Shown in pieces: positions 1 through 9,008 of a DNA stretch of 36,013 nucleotides. Made by a program: the position numbers and the translations under genes. The first letter of the stretch is position 1, and every line of letters starts with the position of its first letter. The notes under the pieces are model-generated. The model saw only the letters and a program-made list of their open reading frames with translations. It ran no database searches and was not told where the DNA came from. This DNA is from Oscillatoriales cyanobacterium RM2_1_1 (GTDB lineage: Bacteria > Cyanobacteriota > Cyanobacteriia > Cyanobacteriales > Microcoleaceae), in contig JAAURB010000055.1 in NCBI GenBank assembly GCA_012033335.1, positions 1 through 36,013 of the forward strand, given 5' to 3'.

Positions 1-557
1 GCGATCGCACTCGATCTGCCCACGCCTCAAGACCTGGATAGGATGCTAAGGAAATCTCTACCTGGGGCAAATCTGGAATTAAAGTTCCCGCCACGACTTC
101 GGCCATGGTAAATCCCTCCCCCGCAAATAGGGCGATCGCCCAGGAGATCTTCCAGAAACCTCAGTACAGTAGTGATTCTGGCCTGACTATAGGTGACTTC
201 ATCAGGGGTTTTGTGATGCACCAACAAACCACCAATACCGGGCAGCAGTTCATGGATCGCCACCATTTGCACCATCCGCACCCTGGCTAGAGATTCAGGA
301 TCCGACGGCAGTAACACCGGTTCAGGATACTTGGCCTCCAGATAGTCCAGAATGGCTTGAGATTCAATCACCCGAAATTCCTGGTCTACCAGCACTGGAA
401 TATGACCGAAGGGATTCAGGGCGATGAATTCGGGTTCAAACTGAGCACCTTTGGCAAGATCAACCACAACCGGATCAAACGGCAATCCCTTTTCCAGGAG
501 GGCAAACCAGACAGGACGGGCAAAGAGAGAAGGACGAGCATAGTAGAACTGAATCAT
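1..557 (-). CDS. Glutathione S-transferase family protein (frameshifted, runs off the left edge)
   Basis: Predicted cytosolic glutathione S-transferase, conjugating glutathione to electrophiles. The N-terminal thioredoxin-fold half is clear: it starts MIQFYYARPSLFARPVW, which holds the usual Ser/Tyr active-site region, followed by NPFGHIPVL with the cis-Pro and by the IESQAI glutathione-binding motif near residue 64. The helical C-terminal domain begins normally. After LLGDR, near positions 126-133, the reading frame changes. In the next frame the protein continues as FAGEGFTMAEVVAGTLIPDL up to the window edge, which is typical GST sequence. The shift touches a HIP1 octamer at 132-139. One extra base or two missing bases would explain it, so a sequencing error is as likely as a broken gene. 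The gene is divergent from the TetR regulator at 715, which may control it. Confidence 0.85.
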
Positions 558-584
558 GGTTTTCTAGGTGAGTACAGAAAAGGT

Positions 585-596
585 ACGAACGGTCGT
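585..596. promoter_or_regulatory. Possible TetR operator between GST and tetR
   Basis: ACGAACGGTCGT has ACGA/TCGT inverted arms around four bases, flanked by A-rich and T-rich sequence. It lies 28 bp upstream of the GST start and about 120 bp upstream of tetR, in the divergent intergenic region. TetR repressors typically bind short palindromes in such positions. The assignment is inferred from position and symmetry only. Confidence 0.3.
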
Positions 597-714
597 TTTA
601 TTTTACTATGGTCTGGGGTGAAGCCAATGCCATTCCGTCAGACTAGCCAGCTATAAATTCACCACCTTTTGTAACCTTGATGTAATCTTGAAATGACCCT
701 GGATTCTGCACCCG

Positions 715-1376
715 ATGCCAGAACTCTCCCTATCTCCATCCCCAGCCAAGCGCCGCCGCACCTCCCAGGGGGAACAAACCTACCAGGCCATTTTGCAAAG
801 GGCCATGGATATTGCCTCCGTAGAAGGCTTGGAAGGACTATCAATCGGTCGATTAGCGGGGGAATTGACCATGAGTAAAAGCGGTTTGTTTGCCCATTTT
901 GGCTCCAAGGAAGAATTACAATTGGCCACGATTACAGCGGCCCGCGCCCTAGTGATTGGCCGGGTTGTACGTCCTGCCCTCAGAAACCCAAAAGGAATTC
1001 AACGGTTGCAACGGCTGTGTGCAGCCTGGCTGAACTATACAGAACAGAACCTGTTTCCGGGGGGTTGCTTTTTTGCCATGACCTCAGTGGAATTCAAAAG
1101 TCGTCCTGGTGCAGTCCGCGATCGCTGGTTGAGATCATGCAAGAGCGGTTGGCGACCTTTGGGCGGTTGGTTCGGGATGCTCAGCAGATGGGGGAAATTC
1201 AAGCGGATCTCGACGCTGATCAGTTGGCTTTTGAAATTGATACATTACTGATGGGAGCCAATTGGACGTTTCAGTTATATGGCGATCCTCAGTTAATCAG
1301 CCGTACCCGCCATGCCATTCAGCAGCGGCTCCAGAATGCCAGCTTCCAATCATCCGAAATCCGCAATGAATCATGA
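715..1376 (+). CDS. TetR/AcrR family transcriptional regulator (frameshifted)
   Basis: Predicted one-component repressor. The N-terminal helix-turn-helix is typical: AILQRAMDIASVEGLEGLSIGRLAGELTMSKSGLFAHFGSKEELQ spans roughly residues 26-70, with the GLSIGRLA and SGLFAHFGSKEEL signatures. The C-terminal ligand domain starts in this frame and then shifts near 1118-1128. Beyond that point the next frame reads LVEIMQERLATFGRLVRDAQQMG through to a stop at 1376. Restoring one base gives about 220 residues, a normal TetR length. The shift sits on the HIP1 octamer at 1118-1125. The likely start is ATG 715. It is transcribed away from the GST gene, a common arrangement for a local regulator, and its last bases overlap the response-regulator remnant on the other strand. 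Confidence 0.85.
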
Positions 1377-1718
1377 ATCATCAAAACTGGAGATTGGGGC
1401 TCGAATTCTAGCCGCTAATTCTTCCAATTCAAAGGGCTTTACTAGGTAATCATCGGCCCCTGCATCTAACCCAATAATTTTGTCAGTGGTCGTATCTCGA
1501 GATGTCAGCACCAAAATGGGTGCAATGAAACTCATTTCTCGAAGCCACTTGTATAGGGTAATCCCATCCAACCCCGGCAACATCAAATCCAATAAAATCA
1601 AATCTTAGGCCCCTGCTTGGGCGTAGTTTTGCCCTGCGATTCCATCTCTAGCAATATCCACTGCATGGTTTCGATCATCGTCTTCAACCAATAAAATTCT
1701 CATGGGAATTGTTCTCAT
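1371..1718 (-). pseudogene. Decayed OmpR-type response regulator (receiver domain only)
   Basis: Reading leftwards from ATG 1718 (or ATG 1703) gives MRILLVEDDDRNHAVDIAR, the start of a receiver domain. About twenty residues that normally follow the VEDD motif are missing. The frame then has an in-frame TAA at 1605-1607, where the family has a Tyr before DLILLD. After the stop the frame continues with DLILLDLMLPGLDGI (phospho-acceptor Asp), ILVLTSRDTTTDK and GADDYLVKPFELEELAARIRA, all classic receiver motifs. The DNA-binding winged-helix domain is absent; the frame ends after a few unrelated residues at 1371. An internal deletion, a stop codon and a lost C-terminus together make this a true pseudogene, unlike the single-base shifts elsewhere. 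It lies beside an IS remnant, which may have caused the damage. Confidence 0.85.
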
Positions 1719-1724
1719 GAAGCT

Positions 1725-2440
1725 GGCTCAATCTGCGATTTTCTTCAGCTTAAGGCTTAATGGGTAGACTCACATCTTGCACCAAGAGGTAAGGGTCAAG
1801 TTTTGAACGCAACTACTTGCAGATCGAGACCAGCAGATTGAAGCAGGGAACGAGATTGTTCCACCTGAAGTAGAAGCAGACAAAGCAGGACATCAGGAAG
1901 CAGGATTTTGAAGGCCAAGGCGGCTGATGCGCCCCAATCAGGCAAAGCAGAGGAACCGGTGTGCAGATAGACCCAATGAACCAAGAGGAAGCAGATGAAA
2001 CACAGAATCAGCCATCGATAGACACCCCGCAATGTCTGTTGAGCAAAACGGTGTAAGCCAAAGCGATGTTTGATGGTTTTGAAGAAGCCTGCAATCGCCC
2101 AGCGACGTCGTCCCCACCAATTGATAGTAATGGCTTTGAGCGGACGGGTAGAAAGGACAAAACGCTTTTCCAACTTGCCATCGCGTTTGAGGTAGAACCA
2201 GGAGATGGTGATGGGGAATGACAACCCCTTAAGTCTGACTTGTTGTCCTTTGTTGACCAAGTGAGAGACTGGACGTTCATCTGTGAGTTTACGGTCGTAG
2301 CGCACCCCAACAATGACGGGGTGACGACGGGCCCGCATGGCTGTCAGAAACTCAACGCTACCGAAGGCGGTATCGGCCAAAATGATGACTCGAAAGGCTT
2401 TCACTACAGAGGAAGGCAATGTGTCAATCAATCGCACTGC
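1725..2440 (-). mobile_element. Truncated IS4-type insertion sequence remnant
   Basis: This segment holds the C-terminal part of a DDE transposase and about 70 bp of possible terminal sequence on its left. Its right side ends abruptly at roughly 2435-2445, where nuclease coding sequence on the other strand begins, so the transposase N-terminus and one IS end are missing. I could not define terminal inverted repeats or a target duplication. The limits given are approximate. Confidence 0.65.
1796..2440 (-). pseudogene. IS4-type transposase, C-terminal fragment
   Basis: DDE transposase remnant. Recognisable parts are VIILADTAFGSVEFL (a catalytic Asp region), VGVRYDRKL, and the C-terminal RRRWAIAGFFKTIKHRFGLHRF followed by a hydrophobic segment near LILCFICFLLVHW. 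The N-terminal DNA-binding part and first catalytic Asp are missing, because the frame runs into nuclease sequence of the opposite strand around 2440. In the C-terminal signature, Ala (GCA) stands where I expect the catalytic Glu of the RW-x-IE-x-FFK pattern; this is from memory of the family. The frame extends upstream to 2566, but those residues are the shadow of the nuclease gene. It is almost certainly non-functional. Confidence 0.8.
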
Positions 2441-2441
2441 T

Positions 2442-2864
2442 AGAGATCCGTCTGCGTTTGAGCGTCTGGCACAGTGTTTACTGCGTGAGTCTGGGTTTAT
2501 CCAGGTACAGGTTACGGGTAAAGCTGGTGACGGTGGCATTGATGGTGTCGGGATTGCCCGTATCAACGGCTTTTTGAGTTTTCACATTCTCTTTCAATGC
2601 AAGCGTTATCAGGGTTCAGTCACAGCAGGTCAAATTCGGGATTTTCGTGGAGCCATGCAAGGGCGGACTGACAAAGGTTTATTTATCACGACTGGCACAT
2701 TTACCAGGGACGCGATTAAAGAAGCTACACGAGATGGCGCACCACCCATTGATCTGATAGACGGTGAACAGTTAGTTCAACGCTTGAAAGAGTTGGGTCT
2801 TGGTGTCAAGATAACAATGATCGAGTCAGTTGAAATCGATGCCGATTGGTTTGCAAAGATCTAA
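2442..2864 (+). pseudogene. Mrr-like restriction endonuclease, catalytic domain, 5' truncated
   Basis: PD-(D/E)xK nuclease domain of the Mrr family (Mrr_cat), which cleaves modified or foreign DNA. The sequence from AFERLAQCLLRESGF through GDGGIDGVG and FQCKRYQGSVTAGQIRDFRGAM to DLIDGEQLVQRLKELGLGV matches the family closely. The active-site Asp in GDGGID and the QxK motif in FQCKRY are both present. The N-terminal winged-helix domain usual in Mrr proteins is missing, because the upstream DNA is IS sequence. In-frame translation can start upstream inside the IS (ATG 2337), so a chimeric product is possible. The gene sits 15 bp before the 80-residue gene at 2880, forming a small operon with it and the HNH fragment. 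A remnant is the most likely reading, but the catalytic core is intact. Confidence 0.8.
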
Positions 2865-2879
2865 TACGATGGAGGCTAA

Positions 2880-3122
2880 ATGGTTACAACTCTTAATAAA
2901 CCATCTTCTCTGATTCATGAAATCCAACTTGAAAAAGTTGGTAACTGGAATTTATTCAAATTCAGTGAGTCTCTTCAACTACGGATGGAGAGCTTTTTAG
3001 AAAAGAAAAAGGCTGATCAACTAACTCCTGACGAAATTACTGAATTGGATGCGATCGGAGAGTTGGATCGTATTTTTACTCATATCAACGCCATGCTTGC
3101 TGCTCAAAATGCCAATCAATGA
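2880..3122 (+). CDS. Small conserved-type hypothetical protein between mrr and HNH genes (80 aa)
   Basis: Intact 80-residue soluble protein without a recognised domain. It is helical and charged in its second half (LQLRMESFLEKKKADQLTPDEITELDAIGELDRIF). The start is well supported by GGAGG five bases before ATG 2880. Its stop overlaps the start of the HNH gene by 14 bases, a sign of translational coupling. From memory, similar small proteins often precede short HNH endonuclease genes in cyanobacteria, so it may be a partner or antidote of the nuclease; that role is inferred. It is the only complete gene left in this remnant operon. Confidence 0.7.
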   Translation: MVTTLNKPSSLIHEIQLEKVGNWNLFKFSESLQLRMESFLEKKKADQLTPDEITELDAIGELDRIFTHINAMLAAQNANQ

Positions 3123-3204
3123 TGAACTCAAGCAGACTATTCGAGAGCGAGCCGGATATGTGTGCGAGTATTGCCATTCTCCTCAGTCTTTGAGTAGAGA
3201 TTAA
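3109..3204 (+). pseudogene. HNH endonuclease, N-terminal fragment
   Basis: ATG 3109 opens a 31-residue frame, MPINDELKQTIRERAGYVCE, then YCHSPQSLSRD and a stop at 3202-3204. The RERAGYVCEYCHSP segment is the zinc-ribbon start (CxxC) of short HNH nucleases, which normally run to about 130 residues with an HIxP core further on. Everything after residue 31 is missing. The start overlaps the preceding 80-residue gene. The sequence after 3204 shows no further HNH motif in any frame, so this is a truncation rather than a simple frameshift. Confidence 0.75.
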
Positions 3205-3431
3205 AACCCTCAGCTCAGAATCTTGAGATGATCTCAATTCATATCAAGTCCTTTGGAGTGAAAACAATGTCATTGAGGCCAGAATCTTCAGATAGCAAGG
3301 ATTTTAGCTGATTGACGACCTGGGTTTAATTAGGGTAATCAAGCGGATTTGATATCACTATTGACCCAATACCACCGATATCTTCCTTTTGTAGAGTCAG
3401 TTAGGGATCTATGGAGGTTTTCTAAAACTAT
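3205..3431. other. Intergenic stretch after the HNH fragment
   Basis: No gene is supported. A short open stretch near 3355-3430 on the plus strand (ending LWRFSKTIQRAEG) looks faintly protein-like but has no start or recognisable motif, and it runs into the end of the USP gene on the other strand. It may be a gene remnant. Confidence 0.3.
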
Positions 3432-6109
3432 TCAACGAGCTGAGGGCAGCGCCGGACGAACCAGAATCATATTACAGGGACAATTGCGGGCGATCGCCTC
3501 CGGCAGATTTCCCTGAATCACCTGCTTCAACATACCCTCTTGACTGGCTCCCAACACCACCACATCACATTGATTTTTCTCGGCCATATCAATCACCGCT
3601 TCGGCCACCGAATCATTACAAACCATTGTGGGAATCGCATTAATTTTCAGGGCTTTTTTGATGCCCTCAGCAATCTTTTCCAGGGCTTGAAAATTCATAT
3701 TCTTTTGTCGAACAACCTGAAGCAACTGCACTTCCGGATGAACACTCAACCGCACAAATGCCGGTAAAAGCTCCAGGGCAATGGACTTATGCTCACCCCC
3801 CCGCAGGGGAAATAACCATCTATTCCAGGTGAGGGAAGAGTAAACCCCAGGAGATTGACCGGTCACAGTTCTCTGATCACACTTGACCAGCATCACCTCA
3901 CAGGGGGCTTGACGGATCAAGCTATCCACCACCCGACCAAAGATCCGATCTGTAGCAGAGGCCCCCTGCCATCCCATGATCAATAGATCAATATGCCGTT
4001 CCTGAATGGTTTCCAAAATGGCATGGGCCGTATCATGGCTGACTCTTGCCTCAGTATGAACCGGCACCTGCCAGGCCTGACCAATCCGATCCGCTTCCTG
4101 CAATAAACGCCGACTTTTTTGCACCCGGACTGGGGTTTCCGAAGGAATTTGTCGGGGCGGTACTTTGATCACGGTCAAACACTCCAATTCATAATTGCGC
4201 TCTCGGGCAATGGCCGCCGCAATTTGCAATAGGGTTGAAGCGGTTTTAGGATTTCCCACGGAAACCAGTAGCCGACCCTGGCCAACCTGAGCGATCGCGT
4301 TTGATAGACCACATAGGAAGGGTGGGGATGGGGGCCAATCTGGGTATCCTCTCCACTGAGATAACCCAACTCCGCTTTAATAATGTCACTGCGGGTAATA
4401 ATTCCCACCAGATGCCGACCTTCTACGACGGGTAACCGACTGGGTTTGTACTGGGTTAAAAGATACAGCACCTGAGTCAGGGAATCATCGGGATTGACCG
4501 TAATCGGTTGCGGGGTCATCAGCTCCCTCAGGGCCGTATCTCCAGGGACTGAACGTTTAGCAATATCCGCCAGATCCTGTTGGGTAAAGATCCCCACTAG
4601 CTTGCCATCTTCTACCACCGGAAACCCCCGGTGCCGGGAGGCAGAAAAGACTTTTCGAGCCTGATCCAGGGTGAAATGTCCCTCCAGGGTTTCGACATGA
4701 CGCTGCATTACCTCACTAGCCCGTAAATTACTCAAGCTACTGTAGGCAGACTGATCCGGCTTCAACTCAATGCCACTCAATTGCAACAGCCGGTCATACA
4801 AAGACTGGGGGTTCAATTTCTCAGCGGTAAAGTAAGCCGTAATGGCACAGATCATCAGTTGGAGTACCAGGTTAAAGTCCTCAGTAATTTCAAATACAAT
4901 CACCACTGCGGTAATGGGAGTCCGGGAAACGGCACAGAAAAACGCCCCCATCCCTGCTAGGGCAAAGGTACTGGAGGGCTCCAAGCCAATGGCAGCACTC
5001 TCCCACAACCCCACCAAATTTCCCAGGGAGGCCCCTAAAACCAGGGAAGGGGCAAATAACCCGCCGGGGGCCGAGGAGCTAGCGGCGATAGTGGTCAGAA
5101 TGAAATGAGCAACAAAAACCACAGCGGTAAATTCCCAGGAGATATCCCCCCCGAGAACCAATTCCCGCAACCCGGAGTTGTTGCGAAAGTTCAGGGGCAG
5201 AGCCGCAATAATCAAACCACAGAGCAGACCAGAAAGCGCCATTCGGCCCGGTAAACTTAACTTCAACTGGCGATTGAACTGAATGGACTTGACAATCCCA
5301 CTACTGAACAGTGTCCCCAGCAACCCGGCTAAAATTCCCAGAATCACATAGAACGGAATCTCCGGGAGCTGTACCAACCACTGCCGATAGGAGGCTTCCA
5401 GGGCTTCTACGGAGGGTTGGTCAAAGCTGACATCCCGCCCCCCCAGCAACCGCGCCACCATCGCCCCCACAAAGGATGAAATAATGGCTGGGCCTAGAGT
5501 CACCCCGGAGGTATCGTGGAGCAGGTCTTCCACTACAAACAACACCCCCGCCAGAGGGGCATTAAATCCGGAAGATAACCCTGCCGCCGCCCCACAGGCT
5601 AACATTTGTCGTCGATAGTTGGGGGACGTGGGTACCCAACGGCTGACCCAGGCCGCCAAGGCCGCCCCGATTTGTACCGTAGGCCCCTGTCGCCCCAGGG
5701 TTAGGCCGGCTCCCATCGTAAACATGGTTCCCAGTAATTTGGCGATCGCCACCCGCAAGTCTAGTGAGATCGGCAATCCCCCCAGGGCAGCCTTGACCTG
5801 GGGCACACCGCTACCGGTTGTCTCAGGGGCAAACTGTTCCACCATCAGCCCAGTAGCAAACCCCCCTATCACCCCCACCAGGGGAAGAAATACCCAGGCT
5901 GGAACCGGTAAATGTATAGAACCATAAACTCGCCAGGATCCTAGCCATCCGGCCCCAATTCGCAGGCAATAGGCTGCTAGCCCGGAGACAAAACCAATGA
6001 TACAAGCCTCAATAATGGCAAGGCGCTCGGGGGAAGTAGGTCGAAGGAACTGAGTTGTGAAACTCTTAAATGGCAGAGAAAGCTGCTGAAGGGGAGGAAA
6101 TTTTCCCAT
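3432..6109 (-). CDS. ClC-type chloride channel/transporter with CBS pair and two USP domains (frameshifted)
   Basis: Membrane anion channel or transporter. The ClC domain fills about residues 25-440, with GSGVPQ at the first selectivity loop, GRQGPTVQIG, and SSAPGGLFAPSLVLGA. A CBS pair follows (VMQRHVETLEGHFTL... and LMTPQPITVNPDDSL..., about 465-590), then two universal stress protein domains that read in the next frame (ATP-loop-like GWQGASATDRIFGRVVDSLI and GASQEGMLKQVIQGNLPEAIA). The frame shifts near 4291-4300, on a HIP1 octamer. With one base restored the protein is about 892 residues, usual for the cyanobacterial ClC-CBS-USP architecture. Residue 141 is Gln (CAG) where canonical ClCs have the gating Glu of GREGP. 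The start ATG 6109 gives a normal N-terminus. The shift is probably an artefact; if real, the USP part is lost. Confidence 0.9.
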
Positions 6110-6160
6110 AAAACTTTGGGTATACCTCTAGTTCAGCATATCAATTGATCTGGGATCTGG

Positions 6161-6418
6161 TTGCGCTGCTACATTACTCTTTCTTTTGAATTTGAATTCG
6201 TTAGAGAAAATTACCGAAGAGAAATCACCGATTCTATTGAAAAACGTCAGGTTTTGGATACATTTGTGCGGGAAACTGATACCCTCATCGACCTCTACAT
6301 CGATGACGAAGTTATTTCTAGAACCGAAGACCATCCGTTCTGGGTGGTAAACAAAGGTTGAGTCGAGGCGGAGGATTTGCAGGTTGGAGACGTTGATTCA
6401 GACTCCACAACTGGCTAA
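6161..6418 (+). pseudogene. Remnant of a Hint-domain (polymorphic toxin type) protein
   Basis: The frame reads DTFVRETDTLIDLYI, DDEVISRTEDHPFWVVNKG, a TGA at 6359-6361, then VEAEDLQVGD before a TAA at 6416-6418. This matches the pretoxin Hint signature, in which a TT-x-EHPFWV-x-x-KGWV-x-A-x-x-L-x-x-GD pattern marks an autoprocessing domain before the toxin of Rhs or two-partner systems. TGA stands where the family has Trp (KGWVEA). No upstream delivery domain and no downstream toxin are present, and the surrounding sequence is non-coding. It is a short fossil of a larger gene, inserted between the ClC gene and purL. Confidence 0.7.
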
Positions 6419-6578
6419 GGACAGGCTAATTTTGTCCAAAGTTTAGCCAGCAAAGCATCTCAATTGATCCCTCCAGATTGATTACCTCAGGCGTACTAGC
6501 CTGGATTTACTAGTCTGGATTTGATAGCCGGGCAGGCTAGGAATTTGGGTAAACCTTGCTCTTAAGCGGAAACGTCAC

Positions 6579-9008
6579 TTAAACGTCACTCAAACGTCGT
6601 TCAATGGCGTTGAAATAAAATTCACTCAGGTCGGCCAGATTCGCATTGATCAAACCCAAATCCTCTGCGGCCCAAATTTCCAAGGGAGTGGCCGAATTCC
6701 CAACAGTCCCCAACTGATACCAATTTTGCCCCGGTTCTTCCCAGGATTCCTGCAGGTAAGTTTCCCAACTCTGCTGAGAGGCGGGAGCAACTGACACCAG
6801 GATTCTCGCCCCCTCCCCAACTAAAATCCGATCCCAGCGTTGCTGCACCAAAGACGTTACCTTAAAATTCACCGTCGCCCCCCTCTGACCGCTGATACAA
6901 GATTCCGCCAAGGCGATCGCCAATCCCCCCTCCGCACAGTCATGGGCAGATCGGATCCAACCCTGCTGAATGCCCCAGCGACAGACCGCTTGCACCTGAC
7001 GTTCCAGGTCAAAATCAACCCTAGGTGGTTTTCCTGCAACTTGTTGATGAATCACAGCCAGGTATTCTGAAGCATTGAGGGTAATTAGATCGGGCATTTC
7101 CAGGCCAGAGGTTTCACCATCGTTCTGCCATTCCCCCCGTCCCAGCAAATAAATTAAATCCCCTTCCGCCCGCCAACCCTGACCGCAAACTTGATTAATG
7201 TCCTGTACCAATCCCACCATGCCCACCACCGGAGTTGGATAAATTCCCTGGGGATTGCCCTCAGCGTCTAGAGTTTCGTTATAGAGGGAGACATTCCCTC
7301 CGGTAACGGGGGTGTTCAGCTCCCGGCAAGCGTCAGCAATGCCTCGACAGGACTCTGCCAATTGCCAGTAACCGATGGGGCTTTCAGGGCTACCAAAATT
7401 CAAGTTGTCGGTGACGGCAATCGGTTCAGCCCCGACACAGCTTAAGTTTCGGGCGGCCTCTGCCACCACAGCCTTGGCTCCTTCGTAGGGATCCAGATAG
7501 ACATAGCGCCCATTACAATCTACCGTTGCCGCGATCCCTTTGATAAAGGCCCGATTGTTTGAGGATGGTTCGGGACAGTCAGTCTGATAAGTTGATGAGG
7601 ATTGGCCAGATTCAACTGGACGCAACCGCACCACCGCCGCATCCGCCCCCCCAGGAACTATCACCGTATTATTCTGCACCTGATGGTCATACTGACGATA
7701 CACCCAACGTTTCGAGGCGATGGTTGGGGTATCAAGAAGCCTACACAATACTTGATACCAGGTATGAAATTCTGTCCCGACAAATACCCCTGAAACCGTA
7801 CAGGGCGGCAATAAATTCTCTGTCCATGCCCAAGCCTGTCGAGCATATTCGGGGGGTTCCGCTAAAAGTTCCCGGTGGTAAATCGGTGTGTTATCGGCCA
7901 GGGCTGTAGCTGGGATTTCAGCGGCAATTTCTCCCTGGAACCAGATTCGCACAACTGGTTCCTCGATGACTGTTCCTGCCACCACCGCCTGCAGTCCCCA
8001 TCGATGAAAAATATCGATCAACTCCTGCTCCCGACCCCGCTGCCCAACAAATAACATTCGTTCCTGGGATTCAGACAGTAGATATTCATAGGGAACCATC
8101 CCGGTTTCCCGCACCGGAATTTTGTCCAGATCCAGGTCAATACCAACGCCCCCCTTTGCCGCCATTTCCGCCGTCGAACAGGTAACTCCCGCCGCCCCCA
8201 TATCCTGGGCTGCTACCACGGCTCCGGTTTTAAATGCTTCCAGACAAGCCTCCACCAGGGACTTCTCTAGAAAGGGATCCCCCACCTGTACCGCCGGTCG
8301 ATCAGCGATGGATTCATCACTCAGTTCGGCGCTGGCAAAACTGGCTCCCCCCATGCCATCACGCCCGGTGGTAGAACCTACATACAACACTGGATTGCCA
8401 ATCCCTGAGGCTCCTGATTTGACAATTTCTGTGGTTTCCATCAAGCCAATCGCCATCGCATTAACCAGGGGATTTCCAGTGTAGGCGGGATCAAAATAAA
8501 CCTCACCCCCCACCGTTGGAACCCCAAAACAGTTGCCATAATGGGAAATTCCAGCCACTACCCCCTGAAACAGTTGCCGGGTTCGAGGATCCACCAGGGA
8601 ACCGAACCGCAGGGAATTTAGCACGGCAATTGGTCTGGCCCCCATGGTGAAAATATCCCGCAAGATGCCTCCTACCCCTGTGGCTGCCCCCTGAAACGGT
8701 TCTACCGCTGAGGGATGGTTGTGGGATTCAATTTTGAAGGCGATTTGCACTCCGTCCCCAAAGTCCACAACTCCAGCATTCTCCCCCGGGCCCACTAGAA
8801 TTCGGGCTCCAGCGGTGGGAAATTGCTTCAGCAAAGGTCGAGAGTTCTTGTAGCAGCAGTGTTCGCTCCACATCACCCCAAACATTCCCAGTTCGGCTTG
8901 GTTGGGATGGCGACCCAAACGGTTGACAATTTCCTGATATTCGTCGGGTTTCAACCCCTCATTGGCAATTTCTTCTGGGGAAAACGGACAGGGAGAAATG
9001 GCAGACAT
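6579..9008 (-). CDS. purL: Phosphoribosylformylglycinamidine synthase subunit PurL
   Basis: Cytosolic enzyme of purine synthesis. It converts FGAR to FGAM with ATP, using ammonia delivered from PurQ with the help of PurS. The 809-residue frame is intact and slightly longer than typical small-type PurL. Motifs seen are [13 protein letters not shown] near residue 50, [17 protein letters not shown] with the active-site His, [28 protein letters not shown], and the second half-repeat with [11 protein letters not shown] and [11 protein letters not shown]. The start [25 protein letters not shown] fits the family. The middle (around residues 400-480) has a low-complexity Ser-rich insert, [20 protein letters not shown], that accounts for some of the extra length. 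It stands alone here, without purQ or purS. Confidence 0.96.

Follow-up and report, generated by a model that had tools for sequence, protein, structure and literature searches.

Type II toxin–antitoxin (TA) modules, as laid out in the consulted passages of the survey by Makarova et al. (2009; PMC2701414), are the closest described relatives of the gene pair considered here. They share with it a small upstream gene that overlaps or abuts a small nuclease gene, a nuclease that is not kept without its partner, the existence of solitary partners, and an occurrence on both chromosomes and plasmids. HNH is mentioned 0 times in the main text of that survey. Unlike the members of these modules, however, the small protein of our pair, 80 aa in length, matches no antitoxin family above cut-off. 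The pair was met in a stretch of 36,013 nucleotides (hereafter the window; contig JAAURB010000055.1, positions 1 to 36,013) of Oscillatoriales cyanobacterium RM2_1_1, in which the 80-aa gene stands between a truncated Mrr-type nuclease gene and a truncated HNH nuclease gene.

Among cyanobacteria, Ssl2245-Sll1130 of Synechocystis PCC 6803 is a described TA pair and, according to the passages available, resembles ours in having a small antitoxin of no known family (PMC12475003, PMC4963859, PMC7965980). The same source passages describe its toxin, Sll1130, as being of the PemK type and not HNH (PMC12475003, PMC4963859), and identity of the two pairs was rejected on the basis of this description. 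GinB was likewise rejected as an HNH toxin family, since the passage found assigns it to MqsR. In Mycobacterium smegmatis, the chromosomal HNH nuclease MSMEG_1275 reportedly kills when overexpressed and cuts DNA but, in the consulted part of its report, is controlled by an ArsR-family regulator rather than by a small adjacent antidote (PMC9416677). The HNH domain also has similarity to PtuB of the Septu system (PtuAB; PADLOC, E = 6.5e-12), which differs in that no PtuA-type ATPase was recognized when the open reading frames (ORFs) of window 1-7000 and of the second locus of this genome (L002) were read, the adjacent partner here being the 80-aa protein. Finally, Mrr type IV restriction nucleases are matched by a second copy of the locus on contig C143 of the same genome, which has both Mrr_N and Mrr_cat, whereas the window retains the C-terminal half only; Mrr is here a clade-limited neighbor outside the core pair. 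Among the open-licence papers searched, none was recognized as describing the 80-aa/HNH pair.

Considering the comparative evidence given below, we regard it as probable that the pair is an apparently undescribed type II TA-like module, with the 80-aa protein as the antidote of a standalone HNH nuclease. According to this proposal, the upstream 80-aa protein would bind the HNH nuclease encoded directly behind it and restrain it, and the nuclease would be harmful once the 80-aa protein is absent. Because a toxin could not outlive its antidote, decay would proceed toxin first and would leave solitary 80-aa genes behind. Binding, neutralization and toxicity are inferred, as is a DNA or RNA target.

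The Locus in the Window and Its Second Copy

The features of the locus are listed below in window coordinates.

1796..2441, minus strand: IS701/IS4-type transposase remnant that abuts the truncated Mrr gene; its ORF continues antisense into Mrr to 2566
2444..2864, plus strand: gene of an Mrr-type nuclease without its 5' part, covering residues ~146-286 of 286, frame open, Pfam Mrr_cat at E = 2.4e-30
2871..2875, plus strand: GGAGG ribosome-binding site of the 80-aa gene, read directly from the letters
2880..3122, plus strand: intact 80-aa gene, ATG 2880 to TGA 3122, proposed antidote of HNH
3109..3204, plus strand: 3'-truncated HNH gene, 31 aa, ATG 3109, TAA 3204, homology stopping at 3182
3241..3355, no strand assigned: short repeat of ~115 bp, 3' of the HNH truncation, with 12 further whole or partial matches in the same genome

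The Mrr frame, closed by its TAA at 2862-2864, is a 91% match to Mrr residues 146-286. It contains the motifs DGGIDG and QCK, which we take to be the catalytic residues, and of the two domains by which an Mrr restriction endonuclease is recognized, Mrr_N and Mrr_cat, the window copy has Mrr_cat only. A gap of 15 bp separates it from the 80-aa gene, which in turn overlaps the HNH gene by 14 bp. In the HNH piece the first ~24 codons are homologous, with 79% identity to residues 1-29 of intact HNH, and we propose that it is the remnant of a toxin gene. Pfam returned no family for these 31 aa at E up to 10; their HNH identity follows from intact relatives, which match PF01844. On the left, the transposase remnant was recognized by Pfam DDE_Tnp_1 (5e-9) and by NCBIfam IS701 (1.7e-12, below the family cut-off), and a partial copy on contig C91, 97% identical, covers window 2010-2408. 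On the right, no inverted repeat of at least 12 bp was found in window 3150-3450. Several genes near the locus are seemingly split by frameshifts or a stop (window 27-557, 715-1376, 1371-1718 and 3432-6109). From the reading of their ORFs they are presumably a transferase, a TetR-like regulator, a response-regulator receiver and a chloride channel with a stress-protein domain, and either local decay or assembly indel errors would explain their state.

The sister locus of the same genome, C143:3830-3092, was 91.5% identical to the window in DNA over ~740 bp (BLASTN), the match extending from window 2444 to 3182. Since homology begins at 2444 and stops at 3182, the loss of the 5' end of Mrr and of the 3' end of HNH is real relative to C143. 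The ORFs and this comparison together confirmed the initial annotation of the layout, in which an Mrr gene without its 5' end and an HNH gene without its 3' end flank an intact 80-aa gene that has its own ribosome-binding site, with the gap and overlap given above. On C143, Pfam recognizes both Mrr_N (1.7e-17) and Mrr_cat (3.2e-30) in an Mrr protein of 286 aa. The protein encoded by the intact 80-aa gene there is 95% identical to that of the window, and a frameshift interrupts HNH. Thus, this genome has two intact 80-aa genes, neither of them adjoining an intact HNH gene. The same break in HNH recurs in L134, from Spirulinaceae cyanobacterium SM2_1_0, where 4520 bp of DNA match C143 at 99.98% identity; since both assemblies may derive from one source, this is weak independent proof of the frameshift.

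It had been suggested from the window that the small protein, as the only one to survive whole, was selectively retained. The window alone does not support this, as the truncated Mrr tail is also conserved: between the window and C143, dN/dS was 0.12 for the Mrr tail and 0.07 for the 80-aa gene. Because both are conserved, the damage in the window may be recent. With an Mrr tail as open as the 80-aa gene and nearly as conserved, the window adds little to the antidote argument. For the window only, it is even conceivable, though on balance rather unlikely, that ordinary decay of a transposon-rich spot took place and that the 80-aa gene survived as the short and central one. The transposase remnant on the left, the repeat element on the right and the open, conserved Mrr frame all agree with such decay, which is compatible with the antidote proposal but leaves unexplained why, across the family, HNH depends on the 80-aa gene and the 80-aa gene not on HNH. 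Under the antidote proposal itself, the module of the window would be a damaged second copy with Mrr in front, where a transposase remnant replaces the 5' end of Mrr and the 3' end of HNH has been lost.

We also observed that window 1-139 overlaps the interior of C143 (L032 4511-4651) by ~140 bp, in what the sequence reading suggests is a glutathione-S-transferase-like gene, and that the match of L134 to C143 ends at 4520. Either a chimeric join in C143 or a genuine rearrangement may lie behind this.

Association of the 80-aa and HNH Genes

The HNH family was searched with one alignment (A2) in 148 genomes, with at most 26 candidates scored per genome, and the best 150 places were listed, of which 137 were used for the neighbor test and the 13 weakest were left out. 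Matches at E ≤ 1e-8 occurred in 142 of the 148 genomes, although some of these may be other HNH proteins. Among the 70 closest listed places (E ≤ 1.3e-47), 69 were preceded on the same strand by a homologue of the 80-aa gene, and in 68 of the 70 the ends of the two matches lay -11 to +11 nt apart. One place, at +101 nt, was the frameshifted gene of C143 itself, and five of the 70 were partial matches. At the 70th place (G057:C20), the stretch 330-618 contains the 80-aa gene together with roughly the first 19 codons of HNH, and the remainder of HNH resumes from about 2012, after ~1.4 kb of other sequence, so that HNH is split by an insertion. Hence these 70 closest listed places include no undisrupted case of HNH without the 80-aa gene. 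The order of the two genes, with the small one upstream and with overlap or near-abutment (68/70, and 14 bp in the window), is that of type II TA modules.

The suspicion that the 80-aa/HNH pair is a recurring module was therefore well founded, and it extends to plasmids. On one plasmid record, the two genes overlap by 4 bp and are annotated as "hypothetical protein" and "HNH endonuclease." On the Fischerella plasmid AP018300.1 (L353), both are annotated as "hypothetical protein," although the product of the second is related to HNH with 69% identity, and the pair lies ~0.8 kb downstream of the ParA/ParB partition genes, in a position typical of many plasmid addiction modules.

Seen from the side of the 80-aa gene, the association was looser. 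From the best 150 listed places, 111 were read with their flanks; two (L123 and L131) were dropped for want of a seed match, and 113 matches came from the other 109 loci. Of these, 57 had an intact HNH gene, 26 a partial one, 2 a full-length one with an early stop, and 28 none. The 80-aa ORF was whole by alignment (aligned from residue 14 or earlier to residue 70 or later) in 57/57, 24/26, 2/2 and 23/28 of these classes, respectively. Where HNH was not intact, 49 of 56 80-aa ORFs were thus whole, or 51 of 56 when length alone (70-110 codons) was considered; L055 passes under either rule, although its alignment stops at residue 63 and it ends in foreign sequence. A consistent neighbor, as expected from the initial annotation, was accordingly found from the HNH side (69/70 closest listed) and not from the 80-aa side (intact HNH in 57/113). 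The 80 loci named individually behaved similarly: HNH was intact in 39, partial in 26 (including L153 and L193, which reach contig ends) and missing in 15, with the reservation that they were recruited through the 80-aa protein and that loci without the 80-aa gene are invisible there. As in type II TA modules, the putative toxin gene was not kept without the putative antidote gene. The exception, and the lone named locus in the opposite direction, was L177, from a metagenome bin, in which HNH is intact and a single-base frameshift disrupts the 80-aa gene.

To sample without regard to either gene, loci of the Microcoleus group were anchored on an upstream gene that, from its sequence, we take to be glycosyltransferase-like; 28 of 29 genomes have this anchor. 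Within 1.5 kb downstream, an 80-aa match was present in 15 of the 28 loci and neither gene in 13, while HNH without the 80-aa gene occurred in 0/28. Of the 15 loci with a match, 2 had HNH at full length, 6 a remnant and 7 none. Twelve of the 15 80-aa matches were full length, one of the 12 with an internal stop. The state in which only the small protein is whole was found in 9 loci, and the opposite state in 0. Judged by eye, about nine distinct junctions of HNH loss could be told apart among 11 loci. Chance alone would give a bias of ~2:1, HNH being about twice as long, and the loci are also related.

Because HNH is hardly ever kept without the 80-aa gene whereas the reverse is common, an antidote is the simplest account of these distributions. 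On the other hand, solitary 80-aa genes decay too, the HNH gene is the longer one (about 450 vs. 240 bp) and so the likelier target of chance damage, and the loci are related and not independent. The dN/dS of orphan 80-aa genes was 0.16 (11 loci, a value that includes the time before HNH loss), compared with 0.09 for paired ones (3 loci). An unlikely explanation is that the 80-aa protein is not an antidote at all and serves as an obligate subunit or chaperone for HNH function in a two-protein nuclease. The fixed gene order and the want of HNH genes without the 80-aa gene would be explained equally by such a subunit. Nevertheless, a solitary subunit gene should decay as fast as HNH, yet the 80-aa ORF was whole in 49 of 56 matches that have no intact HNH, and in the neighbor-anchored set the only single-gene state seen was that of the 80-aa gene alone.

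Mrr as a Neighbor

A full-length Mrr gene lay directly upstream of the 80-aa gene in 6 of the 80 named loci (L134, L137, L143, L144, L148 and L157), and also on C143. Remnants of Mrr were present in L136, L141, L142 and L155, and the Mrr gene of L139 is cut by the contig end. In the DNA covered up to 4 kb upstream, no Mrr match was found in 69 of the 80 named loci. Where Mrr was linked, all three genes were intact in L137 (from Aphanocapsa sp. GSE-SYN-MK-11-07L), L143, L148 and L157; HNH alone was broken in L134, C143 and L144, Mrr alone in L142 and L155, and both in the window, L136 and L141. The 80-aa ORF had 80-81 codons in all Mrr-linked loci, which were themselves recruited through the 80-aa gene. 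Conversely, no 80-aa or HNH gene was found within 1.5 kb of 7 of 8 full-length Mrr homologues of other genomes (76-86% identity), the eighth being masked downstream.

These observations indicate that Mrr–80-aa–HNH is a recurrent but clade-limited neighborhood in which Mrr does not depend on the 80-aa protein; of the expectation that the 80-aa gene is preceded by Mrr, the recurrence stood and the generality did not. Since close Mrr homologues stand without the 80-aa gene, we rejected the 80-aa protein as an antidote of Mrr, and its partner is HNH. The idea that the small protein is an antidote or accessory of one of the two nucleases was thus upheld for HNH, toward which it behaves in this way in comparative genomics, and abandoned for Mrr. 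It is very improbable that the 80-aa protein is instead the controller of a three-gene defense unit serving both Mrr and HNH, with the HNH pair as one of its uses, for although full-length Mrr recurs directly upstream (6/80 and C143), the close full-length Mrr homologues clearly lack both neighbors in 7/8 cases and most named loci (69/80) have no Mrr match in the upstream DNA covered.

Properties of the Two Proteins

Two intact relatives of the HNH piece matched PF01844 above cut-off (E = 5.9e-16 and 5.9e-14). Across 39 intact relatives, H37 and C19 were invariant, and N51, N60, C22, C56 and C59 were conserved in at least 90%; these are presumably the H-N-N residues and two CxxC pairs. Judging from this conservation, the enzyme is probably active. 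Its AlphaFold2 model had a mean pLDDT of 48.5 and was discarded.

In the own-and-relatives set, 84 of 148 genomes carried a homologue of the 80-aa protein, as did 84 of 386 genomes sampled across the phylum. Hence, the frame is not a chance ORF, and its presence in relatives, which the initial annotation had made a test of its reading, is established. In GTDB contigs there were 291 relatives, of which the best 80 were analysed as the named loci; the records of these 80 name cyanobacteria or genera counted as cyanobacterial. Eleven plasmid records contained a relative, viral contigs contained one, and none of the phage records searched matched. A phage origin of the gene was rejected on these grounds.

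The 80-aa protein had no family in Pfam at E up to 10 and no match in PADLOC or PHROGs at E up to 1. In NCBIfam, its only hit was the VapB15 antitoxin (NF047401), with 13.2 bits, far under the curated cut-off of 80. The AlphaFold2 model (mean pLDDT 79.9, pTM 0.59) consists of a helix at 8-14, a beta-hairpin with strands at 15-20 and 23-28, and helices at 30-44 and 50-78. A fold search of the PDB with this model gave no match at E ≤ 0.001, and with VIA-align 2 the top row was YnzC (Z = 6.2; 52 residues at rmsd 1.5), a score within what common arrangements give; the predicted fold gives no functional hint. Neither a DNA-binding family in Pfam nor a consistent upstream operator palindrome was seen. 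Judged by eye, many of the displayed loci that have no Mrr share a TATAAT-like box ~45 nt ahead of the 80-aa gene.

Partners of Distant HNH Genes

In the next 67 listed HNH places (E 7e-46 to 9e-36), 14 had a recognizable 80-aa homologue. Of the 53 without one, 40 were read, and in 39 of these 40 a short ORF (66-144 aa) ended just upstream of HNH; the other (L326) has no upstream ORF, and bases are masked there. Under the stricter rule of a control, the count was 38/40, as L261, whose upstream ORF ends at -73, fails it, compared with 40/341 for long ORFs; this control was taken from 261 or more overlapping loci, includes repeats and has unrefined start codons. In profile comparisons, the 80-aa family aligned over 68 columns (E = 1.7e-13) with an 86-92-aa class of partners, of whose 9 sequences two had already been recovered with the 80-aa protein, and over 43 columns (E = 1.6e-6) with a ~130-aa class (6 sequences). 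One long distant partner gave RHH_5 at its N-terminus (E = 8e-4, below cut-off). The resulting picture is that the partners of HNH would have a common hairpin region behind exchangeable N-termini. A shared region with exchangeable N-termini is a common build of type II antidotes.

A broader and more tentative reading, which we consider possible but would not call probable, is that cyanobacteria harbor a large undescribed superfamily of HNH TA modules, whose antidotes combine a constant helical hairpin with swapped N-termini, one of them DNA-binding-like, and of which one clade has been joined in an operon to Mrr as a two-nuclease defense unit under one antidote. If the antidote proposal is right, many cyanobacteria carry at least one copy of a nuclease switch that in the annotated plasmid records examined is given only as "HNH endonuclease" and "hypothetical protein," and a class of HNH nucleases would join the TA catalogue. 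It would then offer a genetic entry point to plasmid maintenance, stress death or phage defense in cyanobacteria, and a number of orphan small genes would be explained as left-over antidotes. Moreover, asking which of two genes is lost first offers a simple comparative test for further gene pairs that lack annotation.

One further arrangement of the pair was seen at L011 (G101:C1), where one HNH gene lies within a row of three 80-aa-type genes: one of the extra genes precedes the usual partner, and the other follows it and is without the start of the family sequence.
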